From assembly GCA_016788205.1 (NCBI GenBank), contig JAEUTA010000031.1, forward strand, positions 292,576-356,575: a DNA stretch of 64,000 bases, read 5' to 3'. Below the pieces are notes generated by a model. That model was not told the origin of the DNA. It searched no databases and saw only the letters and a program-made list of their open reading frames with translations. Position numbers and translations under genes: made by a program. The DNA comes from Flavobacteriales bacterium (lineage in GTDB: Bacteria; Bacteroidota; Bacteroidia; Flavobacteriales_F; PHOS-HE28). Below, one piece after another: positions 18 to 11,470 of the stretch (within the stretch, counting starts at the first letter, position 1; every line of letters starts with the position of its first letter).

Positions 18-2396
18 ATGGCATCAACGCTGGTCCGCTTCGTCCTGCTGATCGCCTGCTATGCATGCACGTGCACGGTTGTCGGTCAAGGTGAGATCAT
101 CCGCAAACTGAAAAGCGAACTCGCGACCGACGAACTGAACTCACACGAGCGCGCCCGCAAACTCGAGCGTCTCTCATGGTACTTATGCGGTGCCGACCCC
201 ATCAGTGCCATGGAGGCCGCACAAGAGGCCATGGCGATCGCGGAACGCATCAATGACCCTTCCCTCCTCGGCAGTGCCATCGTACGCAAGGTCGCTGCGA
301 AGCAGACCGCTAGTGACCGTACCGGAGATGCCGAAGATTTGGAACGTGCTGTCGGTCTCTTGAAGAAGCACGGCCCGGAACGCGATCTAGGCTATGCCTA
401 CTGGTGCCTCTTCATGGAGCTTTCCGAAGTGGCCGGGCAGGACAGCTTGTGCAAGTTCTACAATCAAAAGGCCAGCGCGTTGTTCGAGCGCCACAACGAA
501 GCCACGGGGCGATACTGGGTCTTGTTGACCGCACTGTTCTACAACCCATCCTCCGACCAACAGGATGCTGTGGATATGGAATCCGAACTTGAGCGAACAG
601 TGCGCGAGTCGCATGACACCTGCTTGATCGTAGGCCACTACTCGTATGCGTTCAATAAAGCCCTAGCGGTAGAGCACTTCGCCGAGGCCGAACGCATCGC
701 GAACGAACACCTGGCAATGAGCCGAACGATGAACGTACCGTTCGAGGAATTCGGGGCGCTGCTGGACCTGCAATCCGCCGCCGCCTACTTGGGCGATCAC
801 GAACAGGCCATCCGGTATGGCCTGCAAATGCTGGAAGTCACGGAACGGCTACGAATGACCACCTATCGTCGCTGGGTTCATAGTGAGATCGCAACACGCT
901 TCGCGGATCTGGACGACCACGCGAGCGCCATGGAGCATCTTCAGCAGGCACTGGCCATTGATGGAGGGCCTAAGGGACCGTGGGATTGTTTCCAGATCCT
1001 GCTCAACTTGGGAAGATCCCTTCTGAAGACCGGTCAACTCGATACCGCACTCGTGGTCCTGCACGATTCCGAGCGGCTATTCACAGAGGGAGCGAACGGG
1101 ACTTTCCCGTTGTATGAATCCACCTTGCAGGCCTTCTTGCTGCAATACCTCGGCACCGCTTATCGTCAGAAAGGCGACCTGGTCCGCTCGCGGACGTACC
1201 TGGAACACGCGCTCAGAGTGACCGCCATCCCGAACATGCGCATGGATGCCGCGCGCGTAGGCGTGGAGCACGCCCGCACACTGGCGCTGGGTAACGCCGC
1301 AGACAGGATAGCCGCGATCGCGGAAACCGATTCCGTAATCGCTTTGGCGGCCCGGGAAGGCTGGCTGGAGATGACCCGCGATGCGCGGCTGGCCCTATAT
1401 GAAGCGTACCACCACGACGGAAACGTTCCTGCCGCGCTGCAGAACCTGCGTCTACACATCGCCGCGAAGGACAGCCTGATCAGCTTGGAGCGTATCAAGA
1501 ACATCAATGCACTGAACAAGCGCTTCGAGTCCGAGCGCAAGGATGCGGAACTGAGGGACCTTTCCGTTACGAATACACAACAAGGTGAGCATATTGGCGA
1601 GCACCGTCGACGTAACGTGTTGCTCGCCTCGGGTATCGCTGTCGCGGTGCTTGTTGCCGTGCTCTTGTTCGTGCTACTCCGAAATGCAAGGCGAAGTCGC
1701 GCACTGCTCGCGGAAAAGAACGCCACCATCCTGGAAGCACAGGCCAGGCTGGTAGAAAGCGAACGAGCACGTGAAGCCAGCGAGGTTCGCACCCGCATCG
1801 CCCGCGATGTGCACGACCAGCTCGGCAGCGACCTCACCAAGCTCGTCATGCTCAGCACCGAAGCGAAGGAAGTCACTGGTGCGAACACCCATGAACTGGC
1901 ATCCATCGCCAGTGACATCGAACGCATCGCCGGGGAAGCCAACCGTTCCTTGGGCGACATCGTATGGGCCATCGACCCGCCCCACGATTCGCTCGCCGGC
2001 CTTACCGAACGCGTGCGCGCCCATTGCGAGCGCATGCTGAAATGGAGCAAGGTGGAGCATACCGTGGATTGCGTTCACGACGGCCCCGACCGCTCACTGG
2101 ACCCCGCCACCAAGCGCGACATCTACCTGATGTTGCGCGAGGCCTTGAACAACGCGATCAAGTACGCCAAGGCAACGCACATCGATGTACAATTCCATAG
2201 CTCGGTGAGCGGTGTACGATTTCTGGTGCGAGATGACGGCGTTGGCCTCAACCACGATCCAAGCAAAGGCCATGGAATGGCGAACATGCAAGCCCGTGCT
2301 ACACGCATATCAGGCCTGCTCGCCGTGGAAAGCCAGCCAGGTATGGGCACCGCAGTGCGCTTCAGGGCCGAACTCCCCCTTGAAGTAACGCCGTAG
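18..2396 (+). CDS. TPR-containing sensor histidine kinase (NarL/DegS type, HisKA_3)
   Basis: A 792-residue membrane sensor kinase. An N-terminal signal sequence (about 1-23) is followed by a long alpha-helical TPR-like region (about 30-480) that should lie in the periplasm, a coiled coil, one transmembrane segment (about 531-552), and then a HisKA_3 dimerisation domain with the motif ARDVHDQLGSDL (His599 is the predicted phosphorylation site). A HATPase_c domain follows with the N box LREALNNAIKYA and G boxes DDGVGL and GHGMANM. The response-regulator gene follows 16 nt downstream on the same strand, so the two form a two-component pair. The stimulus is unknown; TPRs suggest protein-protein sensing. 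Family assignment is secure, the ligand is not inferable. Confidence 0.93.
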   Translation: MASTLVRFVLLIACYACTCTVVGQGEIIRKLKSELATDELNSHERARKLERLSWYLCGADPISAMEAAQEAMAIAERINDPSLLGSAIVRKVAAKQTASDRTGDAEDLERAVGLLKKHGPERDLGYAYWCLFMELSEVAGQDSLCKFYNQKASALFERHNEATGRYWVLLTALFYNPSSDQQDAVDMESELERTVRESHDTCLIVGHYSYAFNKALAVEHFAEAERIANEHLAMSRTMNVPFEEFGALLDLQSAAAYLGDHEQAIRYGLQMLEVTERLRMTTYRRWVHSEIATRFADLDDHASAMEHLQQALAIDGGPKGPWDCFQILLNLGRSLLKTGQLDTALVVLHDSERLFTEGANGTFPLYESTLQAFLLQYLGTAYRQKGDLVRSRTYLEHALRVTAIPNMRMDAARVGVEHARTLALGNAADRIAAIAETDSVIALAAREGWLEMTRDARLALYEAYHHDGNVPAALQNLRLHIAAKDSLISLERIKNINALNKRFESERKDAELRDLSVTNTQQGEHIGEHRRRNVLLASGIAVAVLVAVLLFVLLRNARRSRALLAEKNATILEAQARLVESERAREASEVRTRIARDVHDQLGSDLTKLVMLSTEAKEVTGANTHELASIASDIERIAGEANRSLGDIVWAIDPPHDSLAGLTERVRAHCERMLKWSKVEHTVDCVHDGPDRSLDPATKRDIYLMLREALNNAIKYAKATHIDVQFHSSVSGVRFLVRDDGVGLNHDPSKGHGMANMQARATRISGLLAVESQPGMGTAVRFRAELPLEVTP

Positions 2397-2412
2397 GGCT
2401 ATCTTGCGGCGA

Positions 2413-3048
2413 ATGGTCACCACCATCCGCACGGCTATCGTCGAGGACGACAATGAGCTTCGCGAGCTTATCCGGCGTCGCATCGAACGTAGCGGCGATA
2501 TGCAGGTGGTGCGCGTATTCCGGAGCGGCGATGAATTCCTCGAACGGATCGACGAGCTTGATCTCCACGTGGTGCTCATGGACATCAACATGGAGGGCCG
2601 CAATGGCATTGAGACCGTGCGTGTGGCCAAGCCCCACAAGCCGGACGTACAGTACCTGATGCTCACCATCTTCGAGAACCCGGCGTACATCTTTGAAGCC
2701 TTGTGCGCCGGAGCCACCGGTTACCTCACGAAGAGTACGCCCGAAGAAGAACTGCTCGAGGCTGTGCGCGACATCCATCGAGGCGGGTCGCCCATGAACA
2801 GCGCGATCGCGCGCATGGTGGTGAACAGCCTTCACAAAGGCACGCAGCAACGCATCAAGGACGAGCAACTGAGCGAGCGAGAGAAGCAGGTGCTCGATGG
2901 CCTTGCCGCTGGTTTGCAGTACAAGGAGATCGCCGCCAAGCTGGAGCTCAGCACCGAGACCGTGCGCGTGCATGTTCGCCGCATCTACAGCAAGTTGCAG
3001 GTGCGCGGGCGCATGGAAGCGATCCGCAAAGTGTATCCCGGCCAATGA
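2413..3048 (+). CDS. NarL/FixJ-family response regulator
   Basis: A 211-residue DNA-binding response regulator: receiver domain (about 1-120) with the acidic pair EDD near the N-terminus, phospho-acceptor Asp57 in LMDINM and Lys in TKST, then a LuxR-type helix-turn-helix (about 148-200, LSEREKQVLDGLAAG ... VRVHVRRIYSKL). I start at the ATG at 2413; an in-frame TTG at 2404 lies inside the putative -7 box and would be a worse start. It is the cognate partner of the upstream kinase. The next gene begins 68 bp downstream and a 16-nt inverted repeat lies between, so the fibre-protein operon at 3117-9943 is a plausible target (inference). Confidence 0.93.
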   Translation: MVTTIRTAIVEDDNELRELIRRRIERSGDMQVVRVFRSGDEFLERIDELDLHVVLMDINMEGRNGIETVRVAKPHKPDVQYLMLTIFENPAYIFEALCAGATGYLTKSTPEEELLEAVRDIHRGGSPMNSAIARMVVNSLHKGTQQRIKDEQLSEREKQVLDGLAAGLQYKEIAAKLELSTETVRVHVRRIYSKLQVRGRMEAIRKVYPGQ

Positions 3049-3056
3049 ACCACAAG

Positions 3057-3072
3057 TCCCGTTAACACGGGA
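3057..3072. promoter_or_regulatory. Inverted repeat between regulator and fibre operon
   Basis: TCCCGT-TAAC-ACGGGA is a perfect 6-bp inverted repeat with a 4-nt centre, starting 8 bp after the response-regulator stop codon and about 30 bp upstream of a GTGCTTTG box that precedes the fibre operon. It could be an operator for the regulator or a small hairpin at the end of the two-component transcript; there is no T-tract after it, which favours the operator reading. Confidence 0.35.
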
Positions 3073-3101
3073 GTGGTATTGCCCACCTTCCAGCCCGGGC
3101 C

Positions 3102-3109
3102 GTGCTTTG
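3102..3109 (+). promoter_or_regulatory. -7-like box GTGCTTTG before fibre operon
   Basis: GTGCTTTG matches the TTTG half of the -7 consensus and lies 7 nt before the ATG at 3117. If used, it gives the fibre operon its own nearly leaderless promoter separate from the two-component genes. Confidence 0.35.
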
Positions 3110-3116
3110 GGGTACC

Positions 3117-4850
3117 ATGTCCCTTGCGCGTGTTCTAGTCGCGTTGCTCTGCACCGCTCTTGCCGAACAGGTGGTGGCGCAGAACATCGGCATCAACCCC
3201 AATGGTGCGGCCCCGGACCCTTCGGCCTTGCTCGATGTGGATGTTAGCGCACTGCCCGCCAACGGAAAGAAAGGCCTGCTGGTGCCACGTATGACCACTG
3301 CCCAGCGCACCGCAATTCCCTCCCCCGCCGAGGGGCTTCTCGTGTACGACACATCGCTCGGCCAGTTCTGGTACTTCGATGGCGCGGTATGGATGGCCGT
3401 GACGGCGGGAAATCTCTGGAGCACGCGCGGGAATGCAGGCACCGCCACTACCGATGCGGTCGGCTCGTTGGTGGGCAGTACCACCTTGGAATTCCGTGTC
3501 AACAACGAGCGTGCTGGCTACCTCGCTGATGGCATACCGCGAACTTCCTTCGGCCACTTGGCGATGCCCACCGCCACCGGTGCGAACAACACGGCGTTCG
3601 GAAAGTATGCGTTGCGTCTCTTGACCACGGGTACGGACAACACCGCCGTGGGCGCCTATGCGTTGCGCAACATCACCACGGGCAGTTCCAACACCGCCGT
3701 GGGCTACGAGGCCTTGAACGCCAACACCGCTTCGCGCAACACCGCGATAGGCTATCGCGCAATGACCCTGAACACGGCCGGCTTCGACAACACCGCGGTG
3801 GGCTACCTCGCCTTGAGCAGCAACCTTACCGGTGACTACAACACGGCCGTGGGTTATCAAGCACTTCGCTACACCACTTCATCCAGCAACACGGCCTTCG
3901 GATACAATGCACTGCGGGACAACACGGTGGGTGCTTCCAACACGGCCGTGGGCAGTCGCGCTTTGACGAACAACACCACGGGCTCACAGAATTCCGCGAT
4001 GGGCTTCCAGGCCCTGTTCAACAACACCACCGGCGCCGGCAACAGTGCCATCGGGGCCAACGCACTGGATGCCAACAGCACCGGCTTGTACAACACCGCT
4101 TTCGGCGAAAATGCACTGCCCGCTTGCACCGGCTCGTACAACACCGGCGCGGGCATCGGCAGTGCCACGGGCCTTACCGGCGGCCTGTACAATTCTTCCT
4201 GTGGCTACAACACCTCCTTGGGCCTTACCACCGGCGACTACAACACCACCATCGGCTCGTACGCCGGCATCACCGGCAACTACAACAACAGCGCAGGTAT
4301 CGGAGCAACGGCAACCCCAACGGCCAGCAACAGCATCAACATCGGTGTGGCGGTGAACAACAATCTGACCGGAGGTTACGGCACCTGGCAGAACTTCTCC
4401 GACGCACGTTTCAAACGCGATGTACAAGCCGATGTGCCCGGTCTCGACTTCGTGTTGCGTCTAAGACCGGTCACGTACGCACTGGATGCGGAGCTGATCG
4501 AGAGGACCTCCGGCGCATGGTACGTGATGGACACCCTTTCCAACGGGGAACACCGCGCCGACTACATCCAGCGCCTTGCGGAGGTTTCCGCTGCACGCCA
4601 AACGGGCTTCATCGCGCAAGAGGTCGAAGCGGCCGCAGCGGCGATCGGGTACGATTTCGATGGGGTACATCATCCGGTGGATGACAACGACCACTATACG
4701 CTGGGTTATGAATTGTTCACGCTTCCGCTGATCCAAGCGGTGAAAGAGCAACAGGCCGTGATCGAAGAACTGGAGCAGGTGAACGTGCTGCTGCAACAGC
4801 GCATCACGGAAATGGAAGCCGCGAACGGGCCACTCCAAAAAGCGCCATGA
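3117..4850 (+). CDS. Tail-fibre-like repeat protein with S74 chaperone C-terminus (paralogue 1)
   Basis: A 577-residue secreted protein. Start at the ATG at 3117 gives a clean Sec signal peptide ending VVAQ; a GTG five codons earlier is in frame but spoils it. After an N-terminal collar shared with its two neighbours (DPSALLDVD; PRMTTAQR; WYFDGAVW) come about 15 tandem 17-residue repeats of the form NTAxGxxALxxxTTGxx (residues about 158-395), as in beta-helical trimeric adhesin heads. The C-terminus starts SDARFKRDV (Ser428), the hallmark of the Peptidase_S74 intramolecular chaperone of phage tail spikes, and ends in a coiled coil (about 540-570). No T9SS sorting domain. First of four overlapping genes. 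Function as a surface or secreted trimeric fibre is inferred. Confidence 0.85.
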   Translation: MSLARVLVALLCTALAEQVVAQNIGINPNGAAPDPSALLDVDVSALPANGKKGLLVPRMTTAQRTAIPSPAEGLLVYDTSLGQFWYFDGAVWMAVTAGNLWSTRGNAGTATTDAVGSLVGSTTLEFRVNNERAGYLADGIPRTSFGHLAMPTATGANNTAFGKYALRLLTTGTDNTAVGAYALRNITTGSSNTAVGYEALNANTASRNTAIGYRAMTLNTAGFDNTAVGYLALSSNLTGDYNTAVGYQALRYTTSSSNTAFGYNALRDNTVGASNTAVGSRALTNNTTGSQNSAMGFQALFNNTTGAGNSAIGANALDANSTGLYNTAFGENALPACTGSYNTGAGIGSATGLTGGLYNSSCGYNTSLGLTTGDYNTTIGSYAGITGNYNNSAGIGATATPTASNSINIGVAVNNNLTGGYGTWQNFSDARFKRDVQADVPGLDFVLRLRPVTYALDAELIERTSGAWYVMDTLSNGEHRADYIQRLAEVSAARQTGFIAQEVEAAAAAIGYDFDGVHHPVDDNDHYTLGYELFTLPLIQAVKEQQAVIEELEQVNVLLQQRITEMEAANGPLQKAP

Positions 4851-6601
4851 ACAGCGTTCAACATAGTGTGCGTTGGGGATTGTGGCTGTGCTGCTCATTG
4901 CTGTTGGGCAGTGCCCTTCATGCGCAGAACGTGGGCATCAACACCAACGGAGCAACGCCCCATGCGAGCGCCTTGCTGGATGTGGACGCTGCGGCCCTTC
5001 CGGCGAACGGCAAGCGCGCCATGCTGATCCCGCGCATGACCACCGCAGAGCGCAACGCCATTCCTACACCGGCGGTGAGCTTGCTCGTTTACGACATCAC
5101 TACCACCAGCTTCTGGTACTTCAACGGAACGGTGTGGGTGGAATGGGCCGATGATCTGAACACCTGGAAAGTGAACGGCAATACAGGACTCACCGCAGGC
5201 ACGCACTTCATCGGCACTACCGATGTGCAGCCTTTGCAGCTTCGCGCGAACGGTGTGCTCTCGGGACGCATCTCGCTTGACCTCACCTCCTTCGGTGTGC
5301 GTGCAAGCCTGGCCAACTTCACCACGGCTACGAACCAGACCACCTTCGGTTATGAGGCCTTGCAAGGGTCCGGGGCCGCCACCCAGGAAGAGAACACGGC
5401 CATCGGCCACAACGCCATAAAGCCCCCGGCAGGCACCTACGACTGCACCGCCATCGGCAGCGAAACCATGCTGAACGACCTGTCCATCCCGGCATTCTCC
5501 AGCAACACGGCGATCGGCCATCGCGCCTTGCGGGATGTGTACGGCGGTACTTGCACGGCGGTGGGTTACCGCGCACTGGAAGCTTCTGACAATGACTACG
5601 CCACTGCAGCTGGATCGCAAGCCATGCTCGCCACCCCGAACAACTTCGATAACACCGCCATGGGCTACCAGGCGGGCCTGGCCGGAGCGAAGGGCGTGGG
5701 TCGCGGCGCCGCGATGGGGCTGGACGGTTTCGGTTTCGGCGCTGGTGCATGTGCCGATTCGGATGAGTACGCCAACCATGGCTTCGGCTACAATGCGCTG
5801 ACGAGCGTGACCACCGGTAGTGGCAATTGCGCCGTGGGGTTCGCCGCATTATCGACCGGAACGGCCAACGACAATTGCACGGCCATCGGCGCGCAGAGCC
5901 TCATCGGTGCAACAGGCTCGCAGAACACCGCACTCGGATATTCCGCACTGGACGGTGTAGGATCCGGCAGCTACAACACGGGCTTGGGTGCTTTCGCCGG
6001 GCCCACGGTAGGCACGCTCAACTACACCTCCGCCATCGGCTACAACGCGGTTCCTTCCGCGACCGGGCGCATCGTGTTCGGCACCACGTTGAGCACCAAC
6101 CTCACCGGTGGGTTCGGCGCCTGGCAGAACCCTTCCGATGCACGGTTCAAACGCGACGTGCGCGAAGATGTGCCTGGCATTGAACTGATCGGCGCCTTGC
6201 GACCGGTCACGTACCGGTTGGATGCTCCGGCCATCGAGCGCTTCCTTGGTGCCGAAGCACGACTGGAGCGATCGGGCGATGCCGCCGCCCTGGCCGAGCA
6301 CCGAGCGGGATGGGAGCGCGTAGCACAGGAACGCCACACCGGATTGCTTGCCCAAGAAGCTGCCGCCACATTGCACCAGCTCGACGTGTGTACCGATATC
6401 GTTCACGTGCCCAACACCGAGCAGGACCACTACACCATCGGCTACGCCGCTTGGGTGGTGCCCTTGGTGCGCAGCGTGCAACAGCAGCAAGAACGGATCG
6501 CTGCGTTGCGCACCGCCAACCAGGAACTGATGAGCCGCCTGGAGCAATTGGAACGAGCCGCTTCCGCAGCGCATTCCACCACTAGTTCGCGCACACCATG
6601 A
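4847..6601 (+). CDS. Tail-fibre-like repeat protein with S74 chaperone C-terminus (paralogue 2)
   Basis: A 584-residue paralogue of the preceding protein. The start ATGA overlaps the upstream stop by 4 nt, so translation is probably coupled. Signal peptide (ending LHAQ), N-terminal collar (NVGINTNGA, ALLDVD, PRMTTAER, FWYFNGTVW) and a repeat region that is more degenerate than in paralogue 1, with longer inserts between the NTAxGxxA units, including glycine-rich FGFGAGA. The S74-type C-terminus begins SDARFKRDV (Ser430) and a terminal helix rich in Gln/Glu follows (VQQQQERIAAL). The greater repeat divergence suggests old duplication followed by diversification of the fibre shaft while collar and chaperone were conserved. 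Confidence 0.85.
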   Translation: MNSVQHSVRWGLWLCCSLLLGSALHAQNVGINTNGATPHASALLDVDAAALPANGKRAMLIPRMTTAERNAIPTPAVSLLVYDITTTSFWYFNGTVWVEWADDLNTWKVNGNTGLTAGTHFIGTTDVQPLQLRANGVLSGRISLDLTSFGVRASLANFTTATNQTTFGYEALQGSGAATQEENTAIGHNAIKPPAGTYDCTAIGSETMLNDLSIPAFSSNTAIGHRALRDVYGGTCTAVGYRALEASDNDYATAAGSQAMLATPNNFDNTAMGYQAGLAGAKGVGRGAAMGLDGFGFGAGACADSDEYANHGFGYNALTSVTTGSGNCAVGFAALSTGTANDNCTAIGAQSLIGATGSQNTALGYSALDGVGSGSYNTGLGAFAGPTVGTLNYTSAIGYNAVPSATGRIVFGTTLSTNLTGGFGAWQNPSDARFKRDVREDVPGIELIGALRPVTYRLDAPAIERFLGAEARLERSGDAAALAEHRAGWERVAQERHTGLLAQEAAATLHQLDVCTDIVHVPNTEQDHYTIGYAAWVVPLVRSVQQQQERIAALRTANQELMSRLEQLERAASAAHSTTSSRTP

Positions 6602-8313
6602 GAAGCCTGATCATCTTTCTCGTGTTCGCGCTCTATCCGTGTTCATTCCTCCATGCCCAAGTGGGCATAAGCGCCAACGGGGTGGCACCCGACCCATCGG
6701 CGATGCTGGATCTTAATGTCACTTCATTGGCTGCGAAGAAGGGCTTGCTCGTGCCCCGCATGACAGCCGCAGAACGCGTGGCGATCGCAGCACCTGCGCA
6801 AGGCGCGCTCGTGTACGAGACCACCACCGACGTATTCTGGCACTTCAATGGAACGGTATGGGTGCGCTTGTTCGGTACCCTGCTGGGTTGGAGGCTCCCG
6901 TCCAATACCGGCATCACCGCAGGCACGCACTTCGTGGGTACCACGGATGCAGTACCACTGGAATTCAGACAGGGAGGTTTGCGCAGCGGCTGGGTGTCCA
7001 GCTCCTCGGACAATACGCTCTGGGGTTACCGAGCGCTGCAGGTCAATACCGGCACCGGTAACAGTGCGTTGGGCACATTGGCGTTGTGGGACAACACTTC
7101 AGGCACCAACAATACCGCGTGTGGTAGGCGCGCCCTCGGGAACCTGACCACAGGTTCCAACAACGTAGCCGTTGGTTATCAAGCATTGACCAGCATCAAC
7201 ACCAACAGCGGCAATACGGCGGTGGGTTCGTGGGCGATGGCCCAGTTGAATACAGCCACGGGTTCCACGGCGGTGGGCATGCAAGCGATGATGGGCTTCA
7301 GCGGAACCGCCACCAACAATACAGCCATGGGCTACAACGCGCTGTTGTACGGCATCGGCACCGACAATACGGCCTTTGGATATGGCGCGCTACAGGTAAT
7401 GACCACCGGCGATGAGAATACCGCGGTCGGCTACAACGCGCTGGGCCAGAACGTGGGCGCCCGTAACACCGTCCTCTTCGGAATGACCTTCATCACCAAC
7501 GCGGACCGCATCACTACGTTCGGCGTGGGCAACACCACGGGCGGTGATGGCAGTTGTGGTCTGGGTTGGAGTACGCTGGCGAGCCTCACCAACGGGGAAT
7601 ACAACATCGGTCTTGGGTCCATGTGCGCACAACAGATCACGACCGGCGACTACAATGTCGCAATAGGCCGCTTCTCCTTGGCCAACAGCGCCACCGGTTC
7701 CTTGTGTACCGCCGCAGGCAACACCGCCATCATGAGCGTGAGCGGCAACAACCAGATGGCCTTGGGCTACAATGCGGTGTGTCCCGCTGCGAACATCATC
7801 CGCATCGGCACCGCCGCGAACAACAACAACCTCACGGGTGGTTACGGCGCTTGGCAGAACATCAGCGATGCGCGTTTCAAATTCGATGTGCGCGACGATG
7901 TGCCCGGACTGGCCTTCATCAATGGTCTGCGACCGGTCACGTACACGTTCGACGTAGCTGCGTACGACACCTTCACAGGTCTTGCGCAACGCATGCGTGA
8001 CAGTGCGCATGTGCAGGAGGCAGAAGACTACAACGCAGCAGTGACCGCAGCCTCCGCGAAACGACAGACCGGCTTTCTTGCACAGGAAGTGGACAGCCTG
8101 GCGCAAGACCTTGGCTACGAATTCTCCGGCGTTCATCGGCCTTTGACGGAACGTGATCACTACACCATCGGCTATGAGCAGTTCGTGGCACCCTTGGTGA
8201 AGGCGGTGCAGGAGCAGCAGGCGCAACTGGAGGAAGTGCGGGCGGAGCAGCGAGCGATCCTGGCGAAGTTGAAACGGCTAACTCCACCTCCGACTGCGGT
8301 GGAACAACCATAG
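6598..8313 (+). CDS. Tail-fibre-like repeat protein with S74 chaperone C-terminus (paralogue 3)
   Basis: A 571-residue third paralogue, again overlapping the previous stop by 4 nt (ATGA). It has a signal peptide (to LHAQ), the same collar (VGISANGV, AMLDLN, PRMTAAER), NTAxGxxAL-type repeats (about 150-400) and an S74-like domain starting SDARFKFDV (Ser423), where Phe replaces the Arg of the other two. The tail is a coiled coil (VKAVQEQQAQLEEV). Together the three could form homotrimers or a heterotrimeric fibre; equal length and strict co-translation make a hetero-oligomer worth testing. No catalytic domain other than the possible self-cleaving S74 Ser is visible. Confidence 0.85.
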   Translation: MRSLIIFLVFALYPCSFLHAQVGISANGVAPDPSAMLDLNVTSLAAKKGLLVPRMTAAERVAIAAPAQGALVYETTTDVFWHFNGTVWVRLFGTLLGWRLPSNTGITAGTHFVGTTDAVPLEFRQGGLRSGWVSSSSDNTLWGYRALQVNTGTGNSALGTLALWDNTSGTNNTACGRRALGNLTTGSNNVAVGYQALTSINTNSGNTAVGSWAMAQLNTATGSTAVGMQAMMGFSGTATNNTAMGYNALLYGIGTDNTAFGYGALQVMTTGDENTAVGYNALGQNVGARNTVLFGMTFITNADRITTFGVGNTTGGDGSCGLGWSTLASLTNGEYNIGLGSMCAQQITTGDYNVAIGRFSLANSATGSLCTAAGNTAIMSVSGNNQMALGYNAVCPAANIIRIGTAANNNNLTGGYGAWQNISDARFKFDVRDDVPGLAFINGLRPVTYTFDVAAYDTFTGLAQRMRDSAHVQEAEDYNAAVTAASAKRQTGFLAQEVDSLAQDLGYEFSGVHRPLTERDHYTIGYEQFVAPLVKAVQEQQAQLEEVRAEQRAILAKLKRLTPPPTAVEQP

Positions 8314-8320
8314 CTGGATC

Positions 8321-9943
8321 ATGCGCCTACGAAACACTTCCCAGAAAGGAATGCGCATCGCTTGCGTATTGTTCGGCGTGATGAACCGAAGAGCGCGTAG
8401 GTCGCTCTTCGGCCTCGTCATGTCTTTCTACGCATTCGGCAGTAACGCGCAAGTGGTCATCAACGGAGCCGGCATCACCATCACCGTGAGCACTGGAACG
8501 CAGCTGGTGGTGGAAGGTGGAGCCCAGCTAAACGCTGCCGCTGTGTTCGAGAACGATGGCGCCGTGCACGTGCTTGGCGATTGGACCAACAACAGCGGGG
8601 GCAACGGATTCAACGCGACCAGCACCGGCAGCGTGTACCTGCACAACCCGCTGCCTCAGGTCATCCAAGGGACCGCGATCACCGACTTCCGGAACCTAGT
8701 GATCAGCGGCGGTACGAAGACCCTCCTGGGCAATGCCCAGTGCGGGACCGCGGCTCAAGCCGATGGATCGCTCACGCTGAACAGCGGTGTACTTCTCCTC
8801 AATACGCGCAGCTTTTCGTTGTATAACCCCGCAAGTGCTGCCTTGGTCGCTGTTGGTGGAAGTATCCGCAGCGAAAGCACCGACCTGCTGAGCCGTTTCC
8901 AATGGGCGCTGGGGAACGACATCACCGAACACCGTGTCCCGTTCTCCGATGGCTCGGGCAACGCGCTTCCTTTCGGGTTCACTCCTTCGGCAGCGTATCC
9001 CGCGAACACCTTGTTGAGCATCGCAACCTATCATACCGCTGCTGACAATACCGTCTATCCCATTACGGTGAACCAGCAGGTCCTGCACATGGCCGGGGTA
9101 GCCGCTGCGGATAATAGCGCCAACACCGTGGATCGTTTCTGGCTGGTGGATCTCCCCTACGGCTCGTTGACCGGCGCGCTTCACCTGAGCTATTCATCGC
9201 TTGATGATGCCTCCCTAGGCGCGGGGTCCGTGCGCGCCCAGCGTTGGTTGGAATCGGGCGGCACCTGGCAAGCACCGTTGTCCGGCCAAACCCAACCCTT
9301 TCTGCGGGAAGTGGTCGTGCCGAACGTGGTCTTCTCCGATGTGACCGCACCGGCCAACGAACACATCTGGGCCATGGCCTATGATCTTACACCGCTGCCG
9401 GTAACGCTGCTTTCATTCGAAGCCAGGTGCGAAGGAACAGGTGTATCGTTCGCATGGCGCACCGCTTCGGAACAGAACAGCGCCCTGTTCACGGTGGAGC
9501 GCTCCGTCGATGGCTTGAGTTGGAGCATGATCGGTTCTTCGAGCGCTATGGGTACCAGCCATACGCCGACCGCCTACGGCTTGGTCGACCCAACCATCAT
9601 CGCGGACATCCCACTGCTCTACCGTCTCGTAGAACACAGCACCGATGGGACCACGACGGCACTGGCCACGATCAGCGCCCCGGCATGCTCCCCGCCCGAA
9701 CTGGTCCTCTTCCCGAACCCGGCCAGTGACCGGGTATTCGCCCAGCTTCCCGTGCAGTCGGCAAAAACCCTTGTGGTCACCGTCCATGACGCCACGGGCC
9801 GCGCTGTGCATCAACAGAACGTGGAACCCTCAGCAATGCCCGTTATGCTGAATATCACCGGCTTCGCAGCCGGCACCTACCATGTCCGGTTCGCAACAAC
9901 GGACGGTAACTGGTACGGCACTGGACGCTTCGTGAAGCACTAG
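8321..9943 (+). CDS. Secreted protein with T9SS type A sorting domain
   Basis: A 540-residue protein 7 nt downstream of the third fibre gene, so very likely the last gene of that operon. The ATG at 8321 is used here; a later in-frame ATG (residue about 21, before NRRARRSLFG) would give a more normal signal peptide. The N-terminal third is a beta-rich, Thr/Gly-rich region (TVSTGTQLVVEGGAQL) common in Bacteroidota surface proteins. A central module begins LPVTLLSFEA, and residues about 465-540 form a type A sorting domain (LFPNPASDRVFAQL ... GTYHVRF, ending FVKH). It should cross the outer membrane by T9SS and be attached at the surface. A role in anchoring the fibres is conjecture based on position only. 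Confidence 0.85.
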   Translation: MRLRNTSQKGMRIACVLFGVMNRRARRSLFGLVMSFYAFGSNAQVVINGAGITITVSTGTQLVVEGGAQLNAAAVFENDGAVHVLGDWTNNSGGNGFNATSTGSVYLHNPLPQVIQGTAITDFRNLVISGGTKTLLGNAQCGTAAQADGSLTLNSGVLLLNTRSFSLYNPASAALVAVGGSIRSESTDLLSRFQWALGNDITEHRVPFSDGSGNALPFGFTPSAAYPANTLLSIATYHTAADNTVYPITVNQQVLHMAGVAAADNSANTVDRFWLVDLPYGSLTGALHLSYSSLDDASLGAGSVRAQRWLESGGTWQAPLSGQTQPFLREVVVPNVVFSDVTAPANEHIWAMAYDLTPLPVTLLSFEARCEGTGVSFAWRTASEQNSALFTVERSVDGLSWSMIGSSSAMGTSHTPTAYGLVDPTIIADIPLLYRLVEHSTDGTTTALATISAPACSPPELVLFPNPASDRVFAQLPVQSAKTLVVTVHDATGRAVHQQNVEPSAMPVMLNITGFAAGTYHVRFATTDGNWYGTGRFVKH

Positions 9944-10012
9944 ACCGCAACGTCTTGCCAGCGGTGGTCACGGCTTCCGCGCCACTTCGTTCCTTTGCGG
10001 GCCCAAGACGCC

Positions 10013-11470
10013 ATGCAACCTACCTCCATCAAGCAAGTCCTCGACAACGAAGCCCTCACCGGAACCACCGTTACCGTGGCCGGCTGGGTGCGCACCTTCC
10101 GTAACGATCGCTTCATCGCCCTCAACGACGGCAGCACCATCCGCAACCTGCAGTGTGTGATCGATCAGGAGCAAGTAGGACCCGCCACGCGTGCACGTTT
10201 CACCACGAGCGCCTCCGTGAAATGCACCGGTGTGATCGTTGAAAGCAAAGGCAGTGGCCAGCGTGTGGAGATGCAGGTTTCCTCCGTGGAAATGCTCGGC
10301 GACAGCGATGCGGAGAAGTATCCGATCCAGCCGAAGAAACACTCGCTCGAATTCCTGCGCGAGAACGCACACCTGCGCTTCCGCACCAACACCTACAGCG
10401 CCATCTTCCGCATGCGCCACCAGGTGAGCTTCGGCATCCACGAGTATTTCGATTCGCTCGGCTACAACTATTTCCACAGCCCCATCATCACAGCAAGTGA
10501 TGCGGAGGGTGCGGGCGAGATGTTCCGTGTCAGCACACTCGATGCGAAGAACCCACCGCTGAGCGATGACGGCACAGTGAACTGGAAGGAAGACTTCTTC
10601 GGCGCCGAGAGCCGCCTCACCGTGAGCGGTCAGCTGCAGGGCGAGCTCGCCGCCACCGCGCTGGGCAAGGCCTACACCTTCGGCCCCACGTTCCGTGCGG
10701 AGAACAGCAACACGGCACGCCACCTCGCCGAGTTCTGGATGATCGAACCAGAGTGCGCCTTCCTGGACCTGTACGGCAACATGGACCTCGCCGAGGGCAT
10801 GTGCAAACACCTCATCGCCCGCGTGCTGCGCAACAGCATGGACGATCTGCAGTTCCTCGATGCACGCCTGAAGGAAGAGGAAGCGACGAAGCCGAAGGAA
10901 CAGCGCGCCGAAATGGGCCTCATCGATCGGCTGAAGTTCGTGCTGGAGAATCCCTTCGAACGGATCACCTACACCGACGCGATCGAGATCCTCCTGCGCA
11001 GCAAGCCGCACCAGAAGGGGCAGTTCCAGTTCCCCGTGGAATGGGGCATCGACCTGCAGAGCGAGCACGAGCGCTACCTGGTGGAAAAGCACTTCAAGAA
11101 ACCGGTGATCGTCACGGGCTATCCCGGCAAGATCAAGGCCTTCTACATGCGCACCAACGCGCCCGGCGACTTCGGCTACAGCGACAAAGGCCTCACCGTG
11201 GCCGCGATGGACGTGCTGTTCCCCGGTATCGGCGAGATCATCGGTGGCAGCCAGCGCGAAGAACGCCTCGATATATTGGAAGCGCGCATGAAGGAGATGC
11301 ATGTGCCCGCCGAAGAACTGTGGTGGTACCTGGATACGCGCCGCTTCGGCACCGTTCCGCACTCGGGTTTCGGATTGGGGTTGGAGCGCTTCGTGCTGTT
11401 CGTCACCGGCATGGGCAACATCCGCGATGTGATCCCCTTCCCGCGGACGCCGAAGAGCGCGGAGTTCTAG
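10013..11470 (+). CDS. asnS: Asparagine-tRNA ligase
   Basis: A 485-residue class IIb aminoacyl-tRNA synthetase that charges tRNA-Asn with asparagine in the cytoplasm. The N-terminal OB-fold anticodon-binding domain (about 1-115, VTVAGWVRTFRNDRFIAL) precedes the catalytic core, which shows motif 2 (FRAENSNTARHLAEFWMIE) and motif 3 (GFGLGLERFVLF). Presence of AsnS implies direct Asn-tRNA formation rather than only transamidation. The ATG at 10013 is preferred over an in-frame TTG at 9995 that sits in a TTCCTTTG -7-like box. Length is normal for the family. Confidence 0.97.
   Translation: MQPTSIKQVLDNEALTGTTVTVAGWVRTFRNDRFIALNDGSTIRNLQCVIDQEQVGPATRARFTTSASVKCTGVIVESKGSGQRVEMQVSSVEMLGDSDAEKYPIQPKKHSLEFLRENAHLRFRTNTYSAIFRMRHQVSFGIHEYFDSLGYNYFHSPIITASDAEGAGEMFRVSTLDAKNPPLSDDGTVNWKEDFFGAESRLTVSGQLQGELAATALGKAYTFGPTFRAENSNTARHLAEFWMIEPECAFLDLYGNMDLAEGMCKHLIARVLRNSMDDLQFLDARLKEEEATKPKEQRAEMGLIDRLKFVLENPFERITYTDAIEILLRSKPHQKGQFQFPVEWGIDLQSEHERYLVEKHFKKPVIVTGYPGKIKAFYMRTNAPGDFGYSDKGLTVAAMDVLFPGIGEIIGGSQREERLDILEARMKEMHVPAEELWWYLDTRRFGTVPHSGFGLGLERFVLFVTGMGNIRDVIPFPRTPKSAEF

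Follow-up and report, generated by a model that had tools for sequence, protein, structure and literature searches.

A probable two-component-controlled island of S74 surface fibres in an uncultured Flavobacteriales bacterium

Introduction

The closest described systems include the mosaic adhesive trimer (MAT) fibres of Bdellovibrio bacteriovorus, chromosomal adhesins of predatory bacteria with signal peptides, an SDxxxK motif and 13 members per genome (PMC10769870). Surface display and self-cleavage have been shown for their S74 subgroup, e.g. Bd3182 (PMC10769870). Chromosomal S74 fibres with signal peptides are already known from Bdellovibrio, and tandem collar-shaft-S74 fibres from Bacteroidota. 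Here we describe three S74 fibre genes (F1, F2 and F3) that follow a sensor kinase gene (HK3) and a response regulator gene (RR) in a 64,000-nt stretch of contig JAEUTA010000031.1 (the window). The source is an uncultured sludge bacterium with a genome of 3.97 Mb in 32 contigs, 94% complete. Positions are those of the window unless a contig or locus is named.

S74 "tail fiber" genes are common yet unexplained in Bacteroidota; those of this locus are accompanied by a sensor, a regulator and a precisely spaced operator-promoter of their own. The original prediction for this DNA had seen phage-type chaperones on a co-translated, regulated surface triplet as a candidate new surface-appendage locus. 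A phage-type chaperone on a bacterial surface fibre is not in itself new, being anticipated by the Bdellovibrio MAT fibres (PMC10769870) and by the tandem S74 arrays common in Bacteroidota. A search of the open-access literature found no paper on S74 fibres of Bacteroidota cells or their regulation, and as far as that search shows, the two-component/operator coupling and the hotspot island are new. We conclude that the locus is probably a two-component-controlled surface-fibre island, in which the regulator acts on an operator-promoter to give a near-leaderless mRNA for adhesive S74 fibres resembling Bdellovibrio MAT.

Results

By its Pfam domains HK3 (18-2396, 792 aa) is a sensor kinase with a periplasmic TPR region, a transmembrane segment and HisKA_3/HATPase_c, and RR (2404-3048, with its start at 2404 or 2413) is a NarL/LuxR-type response regulator with Response_reg and GerE. 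The kinase and receiver-GerE domains of a HisKA_3/NarL two-component system are all present. RR orthologues in the triplet-bearing relatives are 93%, 89% and 76% identical. F1 (3117-4850, 577 aa) consists of a signal peptide, a collar (residues ~23-100), a beta-repeat shaft (101-427), a Peptidase_S74 chaperone beginning at Ser428 (codon 4398-4400) and a coiled-coil tail. F2 (4847-6601, 584 aa, SDARFK at Ser430) and F3 (6598-8313, 571 aa, SDARFK at Ser423) have the same layout by Pfam and alignment. F1 and F2 share an ATGA overlap at 4847, as do F2 and F3 at 6598. All genes named here, and the promoter elements described next, lie on the + strand.

Comparison of intergenic regions revealed an element with two consensus forms, class A (TAACCCGnnCGGGTTATTG) and class B (TACTACnnACGTGGTATTG). 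A class A site, TAACACGGGAGTGGTATTG (3063-3081), stands between RR and F1 as a conserved candidate operator/-33 element, and exactly 24 nt after it begins the TTTG of a conserved -7-like box, GTGCTTTG (3102-3109), which fits the TAnnTTTG consensus (PMC9723704). The sigma-A -7 box of F. psychrophilum lies at -12 to -5 (PMC9723704). By this rule the F1 mRNA is predicted to start no more than about 3 bases from the ATG and so to be near-leaderless; in two relatives, G027 and G024, the predicted start falls at about the ATG. The original prediction had pointed to this box, which indeed belongs to the conserved element, and also to an inverted repeat, TCCCGTTAACACGGGA (3057-3072; TCCCGT-TAAC-ACGGGA), which overlaps the operator. 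The repeat is at chance level. The window holds 22 inverted repeats with 6-bp arms and a 4-nt loop, and the left arm TCCCGT is replaced by TTCCAT in the nearest relative. It was therefore ruled out as a regulatory element.

Among related genomes the spacing is strict: of 27 distinct sites, 23 have TTTG or TTCG beginning exactly 24 nt downstream of the element. The composite TAMY-N6-GKGKTATTG-N24-TTYG has 43 matches in 45 genus genomes and its reversed pattern has 0; the core motif has 33 matches, column-permuted motifs a mean of 0.14. The genome under study contains four composite matches, all co-directional and all inside one island, where they precede the 555 aa operon (to TANFOR), the T9s-F0 operon (F0 being a fourth fibre), HK3 and F1. 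Every exact class A match (15/15) adjoins kinase, regulator or fibre genes. Allowing up to 2 mismatches, AACCN4CGGGTTATTG still has no match in the window, since the class A site there has diverged. Adjacency and conservation suggest that the element is an operator for the neighbouring regulator, fused to a Bacteroidetes-type promoter.

Alternatively, the triplet may have arisen by ordinary tandem expansion within a fibre family that is widespread in Bacteroidota, with the kinase-regulator genes as mere neighbours that exert no control. Kinase and regulator genes of the TPR-HisKA_3/NarL type are common in Bacteroidota, and tandem S74 arrays occur in 22/77 related loci, mostly without a two-component system. 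However, four species retain the linkage of regulator and fibres, and each of the four units named above is directly preceded by a regulator-type operator. We consider a chance neighbourhood unlikely.

A third class of site, TACCnnGATCGKGGTATTG-N24-TTYG, was observed at L150, L154, L159, L162, L164, L166 and L168, before a recurring ~320 aa membrane protein and larger secreted proteins. These sites possibly mark another regulon of the same promoter type.

The order RR-F1-F2-F3 recurs in G001 (SJ123, L073), G027 (L036) and G034 (L011 = L074), where F1/F2/F3 identities are 90/94/87%, 75/68/67% and 66/62/56%, respectively. In G034 a 518 aa protein, a 157 aa type IX secretion system (T9SS) protein and an F0-like fibre are encoded between RR and F1. 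These other triplets retain the 4-bp overlaps, and the fibre frames are intact and orthologous in all four species. F1, F2 and F3 form three supported clades across the four species in a tree of the S74 region; therefore the triplication predates these species. Gene order in relatives, on which the original prediction had been staked in advance, is thus conserved for RR-F1-F2-F3, with extra genes between RR and F1 in G034. The predicted regulated, translationally coupled triplet is borne out by the order and ATGA overlaps retained in other species and by the conserved promoter/operator between RR and F1.

The Peptidase_S74 family (PF13884) matches F1, F2, F3 and F0 with 35.4, 26.8, 31.3 and 33.3 bits against a curated cut-off of 22 bits. 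Ser, Asp and Lys of SDxxxK (S428, D429 and K433 in F1) do not vary among 10 aligned fibres, nor across an 82-sequence alignment whose members had been selected for SDxxxK. An AlphaFold2 model of the F1 S74 domain built from the latter alignment reached a predicted local distance difference test score (pLDDT) of 85. Its four best structural matches were all S74/intramolecular chaperone auto-processing (ICA) domains, those of MyRF (Z 7.8), K1F (6.8), T5 (6.0) and phi29 gp12 (5.9) (PDB 7dc3, 3gw6, 4uw8 and 3gud), followed by an unrelated match at Z 3.5. The retained motif and a predicted fold closest to solved S74 structures indicate that F1-F3 end in a true S74 chaperone. A profile search of the full fibres against solved structures gave no match. 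Collar and S74 core are more conserved than the shaft, as would be expected of an adhesin whose base stays fixed while its fibre varies.

Measured from the collar Trp to SDxxxK, the F1/F2/F3 shafts have lengths of 336/333/335, 336/333/335, 337/334/336 and 337/333/342 residues in the four species, despite paralogue identities of just 34-40% in the shaft. If F1, F2 and F3 were subunits of one obligate heterotrimeric fibre, the near-equal shafts, the coupling and the strictly retained order and copy number would be explained. Known S74 fibres, however, are homotrimers (PMC10769870; K1F and T5 structures), the chaperone halves of the paralogues are only 33-44% identical, and F3 of G034 is ~7 residues longer than its orthologue here. 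An obligate heterotrimer is therefore rather improbable.

The fibres also resemble those of phages. All three are matched by PHROG profiles of tail spikes and virion proteins, the tail-spike profiles covering shaft and S74, and phage fibres align to the same regions at 28-36% identity. S74 fibres are moreover known in extracellular contractile injection systems (eCIS) (PMC12923769). Domesticated or degenerate phage or tailocin (eCIS) fibres, from a contractile injection particle or a prophage remnant, would show such matches. Yet each fibre has a Sec signal peptide, none of the genes read in the island or on either side of it was recognised as a phage gene, the G+C content is host-like (60.9% versus 60%), and orthologous frames are intact in four species. 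A search of the genome (94% complete) for the sheath gene PF04984 found no match, unlike what a contractile injection system or tailocin would give. Prophage or eCIS origin was rejected on the lack of a sheath match and the signal peptides, and we regard derivation from such particles as highly improbable. Because of the signal peptides, the non-phage neighbours, the lack of a contractile sheath gene in the genome and the presence of SprA, a T9SS core protein, we read the fibres as cellular.

T9 (8321-9943), 7 nt behind F3, encodes a secreted 540 aa protein with a T9SS type A sorting domain (Por_Secre_tail, Pfam). With T9, the gene list and coordinates of the original prediction are accurate to the base, overlaps and 7-nt gap included. 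T9 is absent behind the triplet in all three other species that have one, so the predicted six-gene unit was rejected. Four of five T9 homologues elsewhere (L015, L038, L039 and L041; not L040) stand beside kinase-regulator and/or fibre genes. A sorting domain is also present in a 156 aa protein whose gene follows a class B site and directly precedes that of the F0-type collagen/S74 fibre (L007:7854-11344), an arrangement seen in several genus genomes. This protein may act as a partner in the export of fibres without a sorting domain of their own. The genome encodes six S74 proteins in total. Two others (L008:1568-3757 and L009:7665-8480) continue beyond S74 with sequence reminiscent of a T9SS sorting domain, below threshold in L009 and with no profile match in L008. 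Given this position, a fibre that cleaved itself would lose the sorting signal.

The left edge of the window falls within the locus, ~21 kb more of which lies upstream. The island spans ~31 kb from the TetR gene of an RND-efflux operon (end C9:271246) to asnS (C9:302570; 9995-11470 in the window), which forms its right border and is outside the island proper. It holds four kinases, two regulators and four S74 fibres. From the left come HK (607 aa), RR (212 aa), a 555 aa protein, a 2297 aa protein with a weak TANFOR match and a 678 aa FN3 protein, then the 156 aa T9SS protein and F0 (1005 aa; collagen-like repeats, shaft, S74), then HK1-HK2 and HK3-RR-F1-F2-F3-T9, with the triplet and T9 as the right end. 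HK3 is the last of three tandem kinase paralogues, HK1 and HK2 lying upstream of the window. Of the kinase/regulator pair predicted earlier, the adjacency stands; the unit is really three tandem kinases and one regulator.

At least five other genus genomes have an empty site with 222-268 bp between TetR and asnS, and three have 0.6-1 kb. Others carry from several to ~30 kb of variable genes there, in mixed combinations of TPR-kinases, NarL regulators, S74 fibres, TANFOR/FN3 proteins and T9SS proteins. The TetR-asnS junction (G000:C9:271411-302518; L007, L060, L071, L072) is a hotspot, empty or filled as a mosaic. GC3 (G+C at third codon positions), like G+C, matches the flanks, so composition gives no indication of recent acquisition from a foreign source. 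The public relatives are Flavobacteriales metagenome-assembled genomes (MAGs).

Additional asnS 3' fragments of 21-140 aa, the majority extending to the last residue or close to it, were observed in the vicinity of full-length or larger asnS pieces and lie in most cases 0.6-9 kb downstream of these (G004 C2:985351, G011 C84:30253, G067 C86, G065 C3:95860, G034 C45:820, G018 C25:7658 and G024 C11:60941). The pattern looks like an integration hotspot that uses the asnS 3' end. A 63-codon asnS 5' remnant (76% identity) lies at the far left island edge of G010 (L061:9516-9752), directly before a class A operator and 26 kb from the intact asnS, and likewise in G058.

Discussion

We propose that the periplasmic TPR sensor kinases, judged by their domains, sense a cue and phosphorylate the NarL-type regulator. 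The regulator would then bind the TAAC...GGGTTATTG operator, a conserved element that overlaps the -33 element at a fixed distance from the -7-like box. A near-leaderless polycistronic F1-F2-F3(-T9) mRNA may follow, with translation coupled at the observed ATGA overlaps. The fibres would be exported by Sec, trimerise under the C-terminal S74 chaperone, whose fold and motif are evident, and cut themselves at SDxxxK, so that a fibre of collar and shaft would remain on the cell surface and may bind other cells, glycans or matrix. Cleavage, trimer, surface location and ligand are proposed from the Bdellovibrio MAT and phage precedents. Companions with sorting domains (T9 and the 156 aa protein before F0) would use T9SS.

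Several observations weigh against this model. The full-length F1 AlphaFold2 monomer is mediocre (pLDDT 67, predicted template modelling score 0.48), usable in the shaft alone (~residues 170-370, block-mean pLDDT mostly 82-93), and has no significant Foldseek match. F1-F3 lack a T9SS sorting domain (F0 too has neither PF18962 nor TIGR04183) and a lipoprotein or anchor signal, which leaves their crossing of the outer membrane unexplained. The motif was built from some of the sites later counted; independent support comes from the reversed control and from sites in G064 and G032, genomes outside its derivation. The G060 island, with an RR 71% identical, carries only degenerate sites. Finally, GGTATTG-N24-TTYG also precedes unrelated genes in other genomes (the third site class), and part of the motif is therefore probably a generic promoter core. 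GGTATTG-N24-TTYG is probably general, with the upstream half alone specific to the regulator.

A bolder proposal, which we hold to be improbable, is that two regulator/operator classes drive a mosaic, species-specific S74 repertoire from one hotspot, together with a signal-responsive F1-F2-F3 heterotrimer, in a free-living bacterium. The locus makes the question of when and why a bacterium deploys phage-like fibres testable, and a single site that is empty, filled or mosaic in different members of the genus allows fibre repertoire to be compared with ecology.

Like the Bdellovibrio MAT fibres, F1-F3 are chromosomal and have a signal peptide, a conserved N-terminal domain, a beta-rich fibre, a C-terminal S74 with SDxxxK and multiple members. 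They are about half as long, and the coupled triplet and operator-marked two-component island are features of F1-F3. The likeness is one of general layout, and we do not claim MAT membership. With phage S74 tail spikes and fibres (K1F endosialidase, T5 L-shaped fibre, phi29 gp12) they share chaperone fold and motif, but they differ in their signal peptides, in a neighbourhood without recognised virion or tail genes and in a collar that lies outside the best phage profile matches. The kinases and regulator have all the domains of NarL/LuxR-type regulator and TPR-HisKA_3 kinase systems, yet three tandem kinase genes precede one regulator gene, and the candidate operator, TAACCCG..CGGGTTA, overlaps the -33 region, both unlike typical systems of this kind. 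The Bacteroidota collar-repeat shaft-S74 arrays (MAGs, Niastella, Flavobacterium and others) have the same layout, in tandem in the 22/77 loci noted above. Most of those arrays lack a neighbouring NarL-type two-component system, and ATGA-coupled array junctions were found only in this genus.

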